This document shows positions 38,334 through 45,482 of a stretch of 64,000 nucleotides of DNA, one piece after another. The notes below the pieces were generated by a model. That model was given only the letters and a program-made list of their open reading frames with translations. It searched no databases and had not been told where the DNA came from. The stretch lies in NCBI GenBank assembly GCA_016219965.1, contig JACRJM010000015.1, positions 62,001 through 126,000 of the forward strand, in the 5' to 3' direction. The position numbers were made by a program, and so were the translations under genes. Position 1 is the first letter of the stretch; every line of letters starts with the position of its first letter. The stretch is from Candidatus Schekmanbacteria bacterium (GTDB lineage: Bacteria; Schekmanbacteria; GWA2-38-11; J061).

Positions 38334-39233
38334 ATGTCACTTATAAATGACCAATTGCTGAAATACCTTGAAATGCTTGATGTGGAGAAAGGGCTTTCAA
38401 GGAACACGCTCGAATCCTACGAGAATGATATCTCAGATTTCATCAGCCTGATGGGTAAGAAGGGGAAGTCTGCCCCTGATGAAATAACCATAAGCGATGT
38501 AAGGGTATATCTATCTTCACTGCGGGACCGGAAACTTGCAGTTTCGTCAATCATTAGAAAACTCGTTTCCATCCGGGGGTTTTTTAAGTACCTGCTGAAA
38601 CAGGGGATTATAAAAGGCAATCCGCTCGTAAGGATTGAAAACCCGCGCCCCTGGAGAAGACTTCCTGATGTACTCTCTGAGGAAGAGGTAGAAAGGCTTA
38701 TCAATGCCCCGGACATAAAGACTTTGCTTGGCATACGCGACAGGGCTATGCTTGAAATCCTTTATGGCTGCGGTCTGCGCGTCTCTGAGCTTACCGGGAT
38801 CACTGTGAATGACATTGATTTTGAATCCGGTATTCTAAAAGCAAAAGGCAAAGGCTCCAAGGAAAGACTTGTCCCGATAGGCGATCAGGGTTTAAATGCG
38901 CTGTCAGATTATGTTAAAAAAGAGCGGATTCTTTTTCAGAAGAAAAAAATTAATTCCATTTATCTTTTCCTGAACAGATCAGGGAAAAGGATTTCGAGAC
39001 AGGGAGTCTGGAAAATGCTTAAAAGGTATTGCAGAAAGGCAAAGATAAAGAAACGGATAACTCCTCACACATTCCGGCATTCCTTTGCCACGCATATGAT
39101 AGAGAGGGGAGCCGACCTCAGAGCTGTCCAGCTTCTCCTGGGCCATGCTGACATATCTACGACACAGATATATACTCATGTGTCTTCGCAGATGATAAGG
39201 GAGGTATATAAGAAATATCATCCGAGGGCGTAA
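38334..39233 (+). CDS. xerD: Site-specific tyrosine recombinase XerD/XerC
   Basis: 299 residues, the normal Xer length. The N-terminal SAM-like domain has LSRNTLESYENDISDFISLM. The catalytic domain has Arg149 (CGLRVSELTG), Lys near KGKGSKERLVPIG, His245 and Arg248 (HTFRHSFATHM), His271 (LLGHADIS) and the nucleophile Tyr280 (TTQIYTHV). It resolves chromosome dimers at dif. No extra integron patch typical of IntI is present. It follows the VWA gene by 21 bases; hairpin repeats follow it. Confidence 0.93.
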   Translation: MSLINDQLLKYLEMLDVEKGLSRNTLESYENDISDFISLMGKKGKSAPDEITISDVRVYLSSLRDRKLAVSSIIRKLVSIRGFFKYLLKQGIIKGNPLVRIENPRPWRRLPDVLSEEEVERLINAPDIKTLLGIRDRAMLEILYGCGLRVSELTGITVNDIDFESGILKAKGKGSKERLVPIGDQGLNALSDYVKKERILFQKKKINSIYLFLNRSGKRISRQGVWKMLKRYCRKAKIKKRITPHTFRHSFATHMIERGADLRAVQLLLGHADISTTQIYTHVSSQMIREVYKKYHPRA

Positions 39234-39434: not shown

Positions 39435-40625
39435 ATGAGTAAATCAAAGACCATAAAAAACATACGCAGATACTTTGTCTATATTCTCGTGAGAGGGCTT
39501 TACGGCGCTATCTATTTTCTCCCTTTTGGGGTGAAGAGCCTTATTGGGAAATTTGCAGGAACCGCATGCTTTTATCTTATGCGAAGTGCGAGACTTACAG
39601 CTCTTTCAAATATCGAAACTGCCTTCCCCGGTATAACGGCTGAGAAAGCGGACAGAATTGCCCGTGCATCATTCCGGAGCATGGGGATGAATGTACTTGA
39701 AGCCTTGCATCTTCCGCGGATGTCCAAAGAAGATATCAAGAACATGGCTGAGTTTGAAAACCTTGATGTTTTCAAAACTGCGATGAAAGAAGGGAAAGGA
39801 TTGGTTGTTATCACAGGTCATCTGGGAAACTGGGAGTTTTTTCAGGCTGTAATGTCTGTAAGGGGTTTCCCAACAACAGTCATTGCGCAGCACTATTCAA
39901 ATCCATGGATTGATAAAATGATAACGGAGATAAGGGAATCAAGCGGAGTGCATGTGATAGTGAGGAGAAGAGGGAAGGAAAAAGAGGTTATGAAGAGTGC
40001 GCTCGATGCTTTGAAGAAAGGTCAGCCTCTCGGGTTCCTCGTTGACCATTACGCTAAAAAAGGAGGGATAGCAGTTCCATTTCTTGGCGGCGAGACAAGT
40101 ACGCCTTCCGGCCCTTCGATTTTTGCCATGAGGTCAGATGCGCCTGTTCTTTTTGGATATGCTATGAGGAAAAATGGAAAATTTAAAGTCAAATTCCGCC
40201 ATCCTATCAAAGTTGTAAGCTCAAATAACAGGGACTGTGCCTTATATTTAAACGCCGCGCGTTTCCTTGAAGAAGTGGAGTCTGAGATAAAATCCCACCC
40301 TGAGCAGTGGGCTTGGATGCATAATTTCAGGAGGAAACATAAAAAAGGGATAAGGCGTGCTGAATTTGAAAATCTTCCCATCGTTGAGATATATTCCAAG
40401 AAAGACTGTTGTCTTTGCGATGAGGCAAAAAATGAGCTTTCTGACATATTGGCGCGTTACCCATTTAAAATGAAAGTCACTGATATTACCTATGACAGCG
40501 AAAAACTTGGGAAATACGAAACTGAAGTTCCAGTAGTATTCATAGATGGTAAAAAGACTTCCAAACTGAAATTTGATAAAATGCGCTTTCAAGAAAAGAT
40601 AATAGAGAGGCTTGCGGAACAATGA
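39435..40625 (+). CDS. LpxL/HtrB-like acyltransferase fused to a glutaredoxin-like domain
   Basis: 396 residues. Residues 1-305 are a lysophospholipid/lipid A acyltransferase: a membrane-near N-terminus (VYILVRGLYGAIYFLPFG), the catalytic HX4E His129/Glu134 in TGHLGNWEFF, and AVPFLGGETSTPSGPSIFAM near the second motif. Residues about 313-396 form a DUF836/glutaredoxin-like domain: VEIYSKKDCCLCDEAKNEL with a CxxC at Cys325/Cys328, then TEVPVVFIDGKKTSKLKF with the cis-Pro. LpxL-like enzymes add a fatty acid to lipid A in the inner membrane. The thioredoxin-fold tail is not usual. It overlaps truA by four bases. Confidence 0.88.
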   Translation: MSKSKTIKNIRRYFVYILVRGLYGAIYFLPFGVKSLIGKFAGTACFYLMRSARLTALSNIETAFPGITAEKADRIARASFRSMGMNVLEALHLPRMSKEDIKNMAEFENLDVFKTAMKEGKGLVVITGHLGNWEFFQAVMSVRGFPTTVIAQHYSNPWIDKMITEIRESSGVHVIVRRRGKEKEVMKSALDALKKGQPLGFLVDHYAKKGGIAVPFLGGETSTPSGPSIFAMRSDAPVLFGYAMRKNGKFKVKFRHPIKVVSSNNRDCALYLNAARFLEEVESEIKSHPEQWAWMHNFRRKHKKGIRRAEFENLPIVEIYSKKDCCLCDEAKNELSDILARYPFKMKVTDITYDSEKLGKYETEVPVVFIDGKKTSKLKFDKMRFQEKIIERLAEQ

Positions 40626-41356
40626 CCAACATAAGGCTGAAAATCCAGTATGATGGTACCGATTATTCTGGCTGGCAGATACAGCCAAGCGATAAAACCA
40701 TTGAAGGGGAAATTACTGTTGCCATAGGTCAGATTTTCCAGAGGGAAGTAAAGCTGATAGGTGCTTCACGGACTGATGCCGGCGTTCATGCGCGAGGACA
40801 GATAGCAAACTTCAACATTGACAGAAATGTTGATGTGCAGACTTTAAGACGTGGACTTAATGCAATTCTTCCGCACGACATTTCCATACAAACTGCTGAG
40901 GAAGTAGATAAAGATTTTCACTCCCGGTATAATTCTAAGGGGAAGGTCTATAATTATTTTATCTGGAACAGGGACTATAAAACTCCCTTTTACAGCAGAT
41001 ACTCATGGCATTATCATCCGCCACTTGATATTGCAGAGATAAACAGATGTGCCCTTTTCCTCAAAGGTGAAAAGGACTTCTCGAGCTTCCGCGCTTCAGG
41101 GTGTGATTCATCATCTCCCATCCGCAGGATAGATTTGTTTACAATAAAAAAAGAAGACGGGTTCATTAAATTTGTTGTGGAAGGCAGTGCTTTTATGAAA
41201 CAGATGGTGAGGAACATGGTGGGGACACTGGTGCAGGTAGGAATCGGAAAGATGAAACCGGAGCAGATTATAGAGATTCTAGAGGCCAGGGATAGGAGGG
41301 CGGCGGGGCCGACGGCGCCGGCGCAGGGGTTGGTTCTGGTTTCAGTAAAGTACTAG
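40622..41356 (+). CDS. truA: tRNA pseudouridine(38-40) synthase TruA
   Basis: 244 residues. The catalytic Asp52 lies in GASRTDAGVHARGQIANF. Other conserved parts are IQYDGTDYSGWQIQP, FHSRYNSKGKVYNYFIWN, and FVVEGSAFMKQMVRNMVGTL. It modifies the anticodon arm of tRNAs. The C-terminus is followed by the 125-nt palindrome at 41369. Confidence 0.97.
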   Translation: MTNIRLKIQYDGTDYSGWQIQPSDKTIEGEITVAIGQIFQREVKLIGASRTDAGVHARGQIANFNIDRNVDVQTLRRGLNAILPHDISIQTAEEVDKDFHSRYNSKGKVYNYFIWNRDYKTPFYSRYSWHYHPPLDIAEINRCALFLKGEKDFSSFRASGCDSSSPIRRIDLFTIKKEDGFIKFVVEGSAFMKQMVRNMVGTLVQVGIGKMKPEQIIEILEARDRRAAGPTAPAQGLVLVSVKY

Positions 41357-41657: not shown

Positions 41658-44126
41658 TCAAATTGAAATCTGTATTGGTATTTCTAGTTTATTTGCAACT
41701 TCTGTATAGATATCCATTGATGTTTCTGGGGTTTTTATCGTAATTACAAGAGCGTATCTTGCTTTCTTATTCCATTTTCCAAGTTGATGTCGTTCACGCC
41801 ACCATCCGATAATGGGATATACTGCTATAAGTCCTCTTGAAGCAAGATCGGCAGCTGTTCCACTCCACCAGTCAGAATGGATAGAACCTCTGTTACGTAC
41901 ACTTCCAAGCTGCCAATCTTTTATATCACTATCAGATGTTTTTCCTTCTTCTTCATCTCGTGATGCTTTGTTTATGCGCTTCCTAAATTGTGTTTCATTT
42001 TCAGAAGCTGTTTTTACATCAAATCGTAGTTGATGCGAAGCATATCTATAACGCCCTTTCCATCCTCTACTTCCCGGATTTGGTTCTATGTAATAAGAAA
42101 GGGTTACTCTCATATCGACTTTTGTGCTTCCAAGACTTTGCAAGATTTCTTTAGGCCAGGGAATCCTATGAAGATGCATGTCTCTTGTTTTGTAAAAATT
42201 ATCTTGCTTGTCGAATGGTTGAAGTGCATCTTGTACTATTAACGTTAGTGAATTCCTTGCACTCCATAGAGCCTCCTTAAGATCCGGAACACCATATCCG
42301 CAATATCTTAGAAGGTTTTCAGCATCATTGCGTCGCGTTGATGAATTAAACCGAGCCTTCATAGGCTCTGTCCATTTTGCTGAATGAATCAACAGCGCTC
42401 GAATTGTCTCAGGCCATAGTTTAGGATAATATGCTTGTATTGTTGCAGCTATTCGCGAAGCAAGTGCTGTAGCTGCACTTGTTTCTCCAGTCGTGCTGAA
42501 TTGTTTCACAAGTGGTAAATAATAAGTTGATAGCAAACGAAGACTATCAGGATTCTCAACAATTTTAGTTGTATGATTAATAGCTTTATTGCCGCCTTCA
42601 AGCACAATCTCTGGTTTAATCGGCCATTGTTTTTCCCATGTCATTGACGTGCAACTTATTGGATTTAAATCACCTGCTTGAGCTACGGGAATAAAATTTG
42701 GATATAGGCTTTGATCTATGTTCGATTTTTCAGTATACGCCCCAACAGTTAATGCATTCCATGATTGTCCAGGATCATGAATTTCATCGAGCATGTTATA
42801 GTTAGGATAGTGGATACACATGTTTTCATTTGTATTTCCTGCAGATATTATGAATAAACGTTGATTATTGTCATCAGCTCCTGAACACAAAGAATCCACA
42901 GCTGCCGACCAAGAAGATGGTTTGCCACGATCCCTGAAATCTTCTGTTGCTACAGCCATGCATAAAGTGCGATTTCGTTCTGGGGCTGCAATTTCAGCAC
43001 GGGCAACTGACTCAGCTGTAACACAGCCATACAGCTTCGGATCGTTTTGTCCACTCGGTGGAAGGATTTTAACAGATTCAAGTAAATGTGTTAATTGTAT
43101 TGGTTCATTTGACAACAACACAGACAGGAGGTCTCCATAAATAGCAAGACCTGCCATTTCCGTTCCATGCCCATGATGATCTGCAACATTCCAATTAGAA
43201 TGGTAAGAATGCATATCAACTAGATTCAAGGCAGGCTTAATCAATGGATGTCCATTATTTATCCCTGTATCTAAAATACAAACAGCAGGCGCATTATTTG
43301 GCGGTAATTTTATTCGCGATAATACTTCTTCTACCCATTTAGCTTGATCATATGATGATATGTTCATGAAAAAATCTGCAGTTTCTTTAGCTTTACGAAG
43401 CTCGGCTATACAATTAAGCAAGTCAATAGATTTGCTCATTTGTTCTCTATTCCCATAAGCGAGTATAATTAACCGTTCGGGAAATGCGATGTGTTCATTG
43501 CCGACGCGAATACCTATCTTTTCTGCGTATTCTTTAAAATAATCTAATTTTTTCTGCTTATCGCTTTTACCCCGTAGCCATACCTCCCACCAAATATCCT
43601 GATCTTCAGAAGGAAAATCTTCTTCTTTATCCATCCATAAAGCTTTAAGGGCTGCTCTGTGAATGTCGGAAATACTATCAATCAAGTTCTGGTTTTTGGG
43701 GTGATCCGTATTTTTCCTATTTTCATTTAGATATTTATCAACACGCTTAACGAAATATGCAAGTTTCCCTTCTGGAACAAAAACAACAGCATATGTCTTC
43801 CCCTCAATTTCTTTTGTTGCACAGAGTTCAATTCCATTACGTAAATATTCAAGACTATCAATTTTTAGTGGAAAGTTAGATTCACTTTCAAACTGAAGGT
43901 AAATTCCATTCCCAGCATCAATACCGAAGGCCTTTTTCTCAATTTTGAGTTGCTGTTCTTCTATAATAAGTTCAAGGCGGTTTTTTAAGAATGTTCCATG
44001 CTCTTTTCTCTTTCTGTTTGGCAATTTGAAAATATCACTCCCAGTTGTTCGAGAGGTGTACTGTTCTGTAATAGCTGTGTTTTTTAGTATCAAATGAGGA
44101 AGTTTAGTGGAATCTTTATCGGACAT
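41658..44126 (-). CDS. ietS: Subtilisin-like serine protease IetS-type (anti-phage)
   Basis: 822 residues. The catalytic triad of S8 peptidases is visible: Asp286 (VCILDTGIN), His320 (DHHGHGTEMAG), Ser550 (GETSAATAL), with the oxyanion Asn431 in SAGNTN. About 280 residues precede the protease domain and 230 follow. No signal peptide is present, so it acts in the cytoplasm. Size, order and the immediately upstream AAA ATPase (7 bases) match the IetAS defence and plasmid-incompatibility system. Base composition is more AT-rich than truA or dnaE, which fits transfer. Confidence 0.9.
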   Translation of the reverse strand: MSDKDSTKLPHLILKNTAITEQYTSRTTGSDIFKLPNRKRKEHGTFLKNRLELIIEEQQLKIEKKAFGIDAGNGIYLQFESESNFPLKIDSLEYLRNGIELCATKEIEGKTYAVVFVPEGKLAYFVKRVDKYLNENRKNTDHPKNQNLIDSISDIHRAALKALWMDKEEDFPSEDQDIWWEVWLRGKSDKQKKLDYFKEYAEKIGIRVGNEHIAFPERLIILAYGNREQMSKSIDLLNCIAELRKAKETADFFMNISSYDQAKWVEEVLSRIKLPPNNAPAVCILDTGINNGHPLIKPALNLVDMHSYHSNWNVADHHGHGTEMAGLAIYGDLLSVLLSNEPIQLTHLLESVKILPPSGQNDPKLYGCVTAESVARAEIAAPERNRTLCMAVATEDFRDRGKPSSWSAAVDSLCSGADDNNQRLFIISAGNTNENMCIHYPNYNMLDEIHDPGQSWNALTVGAYTEKSNIDQSLYPNFIPVAQAGDLNPISCTSMTWEKQWPIKPEIVLEGGNKAINHTTKIVENPDSLRLLSTYYLPLVKQFSTTGETSAATALASRIAATIQAYYPKLWPETIRALLIHSAKWTEPMKARFNSSTRRNDAENLLRYCGYGVPDLKEALWSARNSLTLIVQDALQPFDKQDNFYKTRDMHLHRIPWPKEILQSLGSTKVDMRVTLSYYIEPNPGSRGWKGRYRYASHQLRFDVKTASENETQFRKRINKASRDEEEGKTSDSDIKDWQLGSVRNRGSIHSDWWSGTAADLASRGLIAVYPIIGWWRERHQLGKWNKKARYALVITIKTPETSMDIYTEVANKLEIPIQISI

Positions 44127-44133
44127 AAAAAAT

Positions 44134-45117
44134 TTACTTATGTATTAGTGATTTACGTTCAGAAATAGAACGTATGACATCATTAGTCTCAAGGTTTTTT
44201 CGATCGTCGATTATATTTTCCTTGACTGCATCTTCACAGGCTCTTGTAATTTCAGCATAGCTAAGTCCTGACGAAAAATCAGCGAGTTTTTGCCAGTCAA
44301 TATTGTTTTTAATATAAGAAGCTAGTCTTGCTTTAAGCGTATCAATAATCAGCTTTTTATTTGGGAGGGTGTATTGAATAACGTCATCGAAGCGTCTGAA
44401 AAGAGCATGGTCAAGGATTTCAATATGGTTAGTTGCTGCAAGAATTAGACTATCAGATTCATCTTGTTCTATAAATTGCAAAAAACTGTTAAGAACCCTG
44501 CGAATTTCACCTACATCATTTGTGATTTTCCGCTGAGAACCGATTGAATCAAATTCATCGAAAAGATAAACACCACGTGTTTCTGTTATTGCATCAAATA
44601 CCAGCCTAAGTTTTGCCGCTGTTTCTCCCATGTATTTTGTTATAAGCCCTTCGAGACGGATTTCAAATAGAGGAAGAGAAAATTCCCCGGCTAATGCGGA
44701 GGCTGACATGGTTTTCCCTGTTCCAGGTGGCCCTATTAAAAGAAGCTTTCGTCTTGGAGAAAGTCCATGTGCACGTAATTTTGAGAGCTGTCGCTGCTCT
44801 TTGACTATTCGAGACAAACGGGCAGAAAGATCTTCGCTAAGAATCATATCTGAAATACGAATTTTGGAATATGAGATTGATAGAAGCGTTGAGAGATCAC
44901 CACGCGGGCTTGCTATTGGAATTGGTTTTTTTATTAGTCGATCTTTTTGCTGATTAACTTTGGCATCATCTATTATGTTTTTCAAATCATGAGCAAGTTT
45001 GCTATGTCCAAGTTTTGCCTCATGTGCAGCCACCTGCATAGCAATGGCAAAAAAATGTTCGTGGTCACCATCTGCATAGCTTTTTAATAAAGCCTTAAGT
45101 TGATTTGCACTAGCCAA
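44134..45117 (-). CDS. ietA: AAA ATPase IetA-type (anti-phage)
   Basis: 327 residues from a TTG at 45117, chosen because GGAG lies about six bases before it and because the frame before it (open to 45165) starts with a TTG that has no ribosome site. Walker A is LLIGPPGTGKT, Walker B VYLFDEFDSIG, sensor 1 LAATNH, and the arginine fingers RRFDD. N-terminal helices (about 1-60) precede the ATPase, as in IetA. It is predicted to sense or process a target and control the IetS protease. Only seven bases separate the two genes. Confidence 0.9.
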   Translation of the reverse strand: MASANQLKALLKSYADGDHEHFFAIAMQVAAHEAKLGHSKLAHDLKNIIDDAKVNQQKDRLIKKPIPIASPRGDLSTLLSISYSKIRISDMILSEDLSARLSRIVKEQRQLSKLRAHGLSPRRKLLLIGPPGTGKTMSASALAGEFSLPLFEIRLEGLITKYMGETAAKLRLVFDAITETRGVYLFDEFDSIGSQRKITNDVGEIRRVLNSFLQFIEQDESDSLILAATNHIEILDHALFRRFDDVIQYTLPNKKLIIDTLKARLASYIKNNIDWQKLADFSSGLSYAEITRACEDAVKENIIDDRKNLETNDVIRSISERKSLIHK

Positions 45118-45482
45118 TTTTTCTCCTTTTTTTAAATTGTAAAATAGTTTAGAAAGAATTTGCAATATATATATCTATTAATTTTATCCGTTGCTTCAAG
45201 AAAGAAAAATATATGAATTCTACGAGGTTAAAGAAATATTAAAAGGAGTCACAGGTTTAAATGTTACTTTCTCAAGAGAAACAGTTGCTTTCGGCAATAA
45301 GAAGATAAGAAAAGTTTTTAACCCTTATAAAATTATTAAGTGTTATTACAATTGCCACAGTTTCTTTAATATCCCTTGTCAATTATCACTACACTAGTCA
45401 TACATCAGGATTAAGGTCTAATCATTAATCAGATCCAAACGAAATGTATGAAAATGTTAAAAACAATATATAATATAAAATC
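45118..45482. other. Gap between ietA and the 118-aa gene
   Basis: 365 bases, AT-rich. It holds the likely ietA control region: on the minus strand a TATATATAT run lies just upstream of 45165. The 68-codon plus-strand frame (45191-45397) shows no ribosome site or convincing composition and was not called. Nothing else was seen. Confidence 0.5.

Follow-up and report, generated by a model that had tools for sequence, protein, structure and literature searches.

Late acyltransferases of the LpxL/LpxM/LpxP type (PF03279) take acyl-ACP as donor, and H122, E127, R159, and D192 of Acinetobacter baumannii LpxM constitute two proposed catalytic dyads (PMC6286764). Mutation of the equivalent residues in Escherichia coli LpxL abolishes activity (PMC6286764). 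The mycobacterial phosphatidylinositol mannoside (PIM) acyltransferase PatA (5F2T, 5OCE) is a member of the same superfamily. The solved relatives of the protein described here, LpxM (5KN7) and PatA included, contain no glutaredoxin domain. DUF836, or Glrx-like, proteins (PF05768) form a small, little-studied thioredoxin-fold family with a CxLC motif (PMC8945050). These proteins, such as mouse C330018D20Rik (1WJK) and the Deinococcus DR_0057 type, are free-standing and about 80–110 amino acids long.

The window, which is the whole 64,000-nucleotide stretch of DNA analysed, contains a gene in which the DUF836 domain is instead the tail of an acyltransferase. This is a new arrangement of two known families, with a predicted function, and no description of such a fusion was found in the papers searched. 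The gene occupies positions 39435–40625 of the forward strand, on which all features of the window described here lie unless stated otherwise. The open reading frame listing and the translation give one uninterrupted frame of 396 codons from ATG to TGA. The protein is built from a predicted N-terminal helix, a Lip_A_acyltrans domain (residues 9–297, 39459–40325), a basic interdomain linker (residues 298–313, 40326–40373), and a Glrx-like domain (residues 317–389, 40383–40601). Both domains score above their Pfam cut-offs in the single frame, in agreement with the first-pass annotation, which had proposed a fusion of an acyltransferase with a glutaredoxin-like domain. The gene lies between a XerC/XerD-type tyrosine recombinase gene (38334–39233, PF00589), found upstream in G001 and G002 as well, and the gene of the pseudouridine synthase TruA (40622–41356), also found downstream in G003. 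The truA start and the stop codon that ends the fused frame overlap (ATGA). Neither neighbour has an evident role in redox or lipid chemistry, and as read from their sequences they offer no pointer to function.

The acyltransferase domain matches PF03279 with 173 bits (E = 1.1e-50, cut-off 22.3 bits) over model positions 9–291 of 295. His129 and Glu134, named earlier as the H-X4-E residues, lie exactly in that motif (GHLGNWE, 39819–39836). In the alignment, H129, E134, R167, and D204 are invariant across the four orthologues of the phylum and fall on H122, E127, R159, and D192 of LpxM, whose chain numbering was taken to differ from that of the literature by a constant 6. Among solved structures, the sequence matches PatA (5e-13) and A. 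baumannii LpxM (4.6e-11), and these matches end ahead of the glutaredoxin domain. An AlphaFold2 model of the acyltransferase part, with block pLDDT mostly about 70–89, retrieves PatA in a Foldseek search (5f2z, E = 2.6e-15, TM-score 0.85 by target) and also LpxM (5kn7), so PatA is the best solved match in both sequence and structure. Given the four invariant catalytic residues and the PatA and LpxM matches, this part very probably belongs to the LpxL/LpxM/PatA superfamily as an active enzyme. The model also predicts a helix at residues about 3–27 (39441–39515, pLDDT about 54–69), likely a membrane-association helix by analogy with LpxM (PMC6286764). Fold, H-X4-E motif, Arg and Asp positions, and this predicted helix are thus all shared with the LpxL/LpxM/LpxP enzymes.

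The protein was previously called an LpxL-type, lipid A acyltransferase. The superfamily assignment stands; the narrower name does not, as every NCBIfam equivalog score is far below its cut-off. The best is NF006270 with 126.7 bits against 248, and TIGR02207 reaches 105.6 bits against 297.8. The protein is therefore not classed strictly as LpxL or LpxM. LpxC occurs in each of the phylum's four genomes, which makes lipid A synthesis probable and sets the phylum apart from the PatA setting. Lipid A is a plausible substrate and is graded no higher because the nearest solved relatives are both PatA and LpxM; with PatA scoring slightly above LpxM, another acceptor is conceivable. LpxC itself is encoded within frames of 731–755 amino acids in the four genomes. 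In that of the window, it is the C-terminal part of a 732-residue protein (L116:541–2739; G000:C3, about 189540–191738), preceded by an N-terminal NtrC-type response regulator with REC, sigma-54 AAA+, and Fis-type HTH domains. At LpxC, four genomes of other phyla (G008, G034, G050, and G140) have comparable frames, as judged by frame length only.

The C-terminal domain matches PF05768 with 53.9 bits (E = 2.4e-14, cut-off 26 bits), or 57.1 bits when the domain is searched alone, and the orthologues in G001 and G003 score 69.6 and 62.0 bits. Three cysteines, C325, C326, and C328, lie at the motif (Cys325-Cys326-Leu327-Cys328, 40407–40418), and Cys325 and Cys328 form the CxxC pair, as annotated at first pass. 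C325, L327, and C328 are invariant in the three fused proteins. So is P366 (40530–40532), which lies in the EVPVVF segment at the place expected for the cis-proline of a thioredoxin fold and is a candidate for it by sequence position. The CxLC motif and a small thioredoxin-type fold are shared with DUF836 proteins (PMC8945050), and among solved proteins 1WJK is the closest in sequence (phmmer, 1.1e-4). A single-sequence model of the domain has low confidence (mean pLDDT 62.6), and its best structural matches are glutaredoxins, 1WJK, and thioredoxins, each individually weak. The C-terminal quarter is unresolved in the full-length AlphaFold2 model because the underlying alignment contained unfused relatives only.

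All four genomes of the phylum encode a GSH-S_ATP domain protein. Neither of two Pfam families of glutamate-cysteine ligase was found in them, and the supply of glutathione is therefore doubtful. Each also has a gene in which a glutaredoxin is joined to a thioredoxin-reductase-like flavoprotein (L020, L022, L023, and L024). The genes of these flavoprotein fusions adjoin apparent ribH and nusB, as read from translations.

The four genomes of the phylum are that of the window (G000, assembled in 18 contigs) and three others (G001, G002, and G003). The first-pass annotation had suggested a check of homologues for the same fusion, and it is present in three of the four, which represent two families and three genera. 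G003, of the same family as G000, contains a fused frame with 58% identity, its N-terminus cut by a contig end. G001, of the other family, contains a fused frame with 43% identity in the acyltransferase part and 41% in the glutaredoxin part. Since two other genera have the same two-domain frame, the fusion is no local accident. Compared for rate, the two domains show identities of 58.0% and 57.5% to G003 and of 41.3% and 42.3% to G001, and thus change at the same pace. Between G000 and G003, the glutaredoxin domain has a dN of 0.31, below a dS of 2.55 (NG86), a comparison that is indicative only, as dS is near saturation. The linker is about 36 residues longer in G001. Repeat-like insertions in the coding frame of that orthologue (L009:1420–1510) comprise a PPTPPLAKGGWGD stretch at the N-terminus and the lengthened linker.

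In G002, the contig begins inside the linker, where a 19-nt direct repeat occurs in two copies, and a TAA lies 11–13 nt from the contig end. The gene of this genome may be fused or may have lost the fusion. The two repeat copies stand in tandem in the linker at the contig end (L008:1–60).

An internal start producing a separate glutaredoxin was considered and rejected. The G000 gene has no in-frame stop, ATG, GTG, or TTG downstream of Met295 as far as the CxxC motif, the linker included, and the G001 gene has no ATG, GTG, or TTG downstream of the Met corresponding to Met295 up to the motif. The linker region of G003 contains a single in-frame GTG (V302), which was judged weak. A split gene pair with a clear stop, the contrary arrangement named at first pass, is not found inside the phylum, where three genomes are fused and the fourth is cut by its contig end, and outside it the two parts are seen only apart. 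No unfused but neighbouring acyltransferase/DUF836 pair was found in the genomes sampled. The fusion could still have originated by deletion of a stop.

In a phylogenetic tree, a single clade with 100/100 support unites the acyltransferase domains of the four orthologues. The acyltransferase paralogues from the LPS operons of the same genomes form a separate group (100/99). This second, LpxL-type copy has a heptosyltransferase-like (GT9) gene as its neighbour, accompanied by lpxK in G001 and G002; gene names in these operons were read from translations. The simplest history suggested by these sequences is a single fusion event before the two families split. G000 contains a third, divergent Lip_A_acyltrans paralogue on a long branch (L003; G000:C10:179993–180856).

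A profile built from the three fused proteins was run on 386 genomes, mostly a few per family from other phyla, and found a match in 301. No listed match from another phylum covers the whole model in an open frame. These matches stop near position 300, and the few longer ones contain stops, so that no fusion is seen in the 382 genomes from other phyla among the matches listed. PF05768 is found in the same 386 genomes mostly as stand-alone proteins. Loci fetched from other phyla around DUF836 genes contain no acyltransferase within about 1.5 kb. Long frames at such loci (L105–L110) were dismissed as fusions, as they contain no acyltransferase and consist of DUF836 surrounded by mostly unrelated open frame or, in one case, joined to a YHS partner. 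A search with the glutaredoxin alignment in 384 genomes from a related phylum, labelled Omnitrophota from tree neighbours (L004/L005), returned almost only short glutaredoxin-like frames among the matches listed. One 410-residue frame (L131) was rejected as an unrelated thioredoxin-like membrane protein. A contig scan of genomes found only distant unfused Omnitrophota relatives, and a scan of viral contigs found no relatives. The fusion is thus specific to the phylum, as far as sampled.

Why the two domains are joined can be explained in several ways. A lost stop between two genes through assembly or sequencing error has virtually no probability: nothing specific favours it beyond a genome in 18 contigs, and it is refuted by the same frame in the orthologues of G003 and G001, which are independent genomes of two other genera. 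The first-pass annotation had proposed that the redox domain gates lipid acylation, in which case oxidation of C325/C328 would shift the conformation and switch the acyltransferase on or off. A CxxC motif of the redox-active type is indeed covalently joined to the enzyme in three genera. A cis redox switch, however, is expected to need a partner cysteine, and C325 and C328 are common to all three fused proteins yet have no conserved partner. In an alignment of these three, complete or nearly complete, the acyltransferase cysteines C45 and C268 of G000, C180 of G003, and C68, C237, and C266 of G001 share no three-way column. In addition, linker length varies among relatives by about 36 residues, and DUF836 is normally a small free-standing protein that is unfused elsewhere. 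These observations speak against gating, which we rate as quite improbable, though an allosteric effect may operate without a second cysteine. The broader idea, that the activity or location of the acyltransferase is coupled to thiol redox state through its built-in glutaredoxin, is also unlikely.

The variable linker, which is extended in G001 and carries a tandem repeat in G002, would also suit a fusion without meaning, in which an adjacent small glutaredoxin gene was joined in the ancestor of the phylum and the domains keep their ordinary jobs. The confinement to one lineage and one clade, the equal and independent conservation of both domains, and the uninformative neighbours xerC and truA fit this explanation as well. 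A useless join would nevertheless be free to split or decay, whereas this one has been kept, and both active sites with it, in no fewer than three genera belonging to two families, and the lack of any unfused adjacent pair leaves the supposed starting point unseen in the sample. We consider a meaningless join possible but doubtful. Handling of the donor thiol is far less probable: the glutaredoxin domain would keep the phosphopantetheine thiol of ACP or that of CoA reduced, or dock the carrier next to the acyltransferase. Having a domain that binds thiols close to the carrier is logical for enzymes that use acyl-ACP (PMC6286764), but the sequence gives no evidence of such a role and known late acyltransferases do without the domain.

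The explanation we favour, with a probability of roughly 0.5, is a membrane-associated protein of two functions, a late-type acyltransferase with a tethered, independent dithiol glutaredoxin and no cis switch. The absence of a shared acyltransferase cysteine, the variable linker, and the equal conservation rates are all consistent with two domains working independently. In this two-function protein, the N-terminal part would be a second late acyltransferase with an LpxM-like role, which would use acyl-ACP as donor and act alongside the canonical LPS-operon LpxL on the cytoplasmic side of the inner membrane. The loose basic linker would hold the glutaredoxin domain in the cytosol near the membrane, where the domain could carry out thiol-disulfide exchange on another protein or a small molecule. 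It would probably be re-reduced by the genome's own thioredoxin-reductase/glutaredoxin fusion protein. The tether would position the glutaredoxin domain rather than switch the acyltransferase.

The arrangement is conserved within a little-sampled phylum and joins envelope lipid synthesis and thiol redox chemistry in a single polypeptide. Should the redox domain have the envelope machinery as its target, the protein would provide a handle on how membrane lipid make-up is linked to redox state. If it does not, the fusion would mark shared descent within the phylum. Were redox coupling true, redox state would directly control how outer-membrane lipids are acylated in one phylum of bacteria.

Elsewhere in the window, on the reverse strand (41658–45165), the gene of a subtilisin-like serine protease (822 amino acids) adjoins that of an AAA+ ATPase (343 amino acids), as read from their translations. 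The two may constitute a functional protease/ATPase pair.
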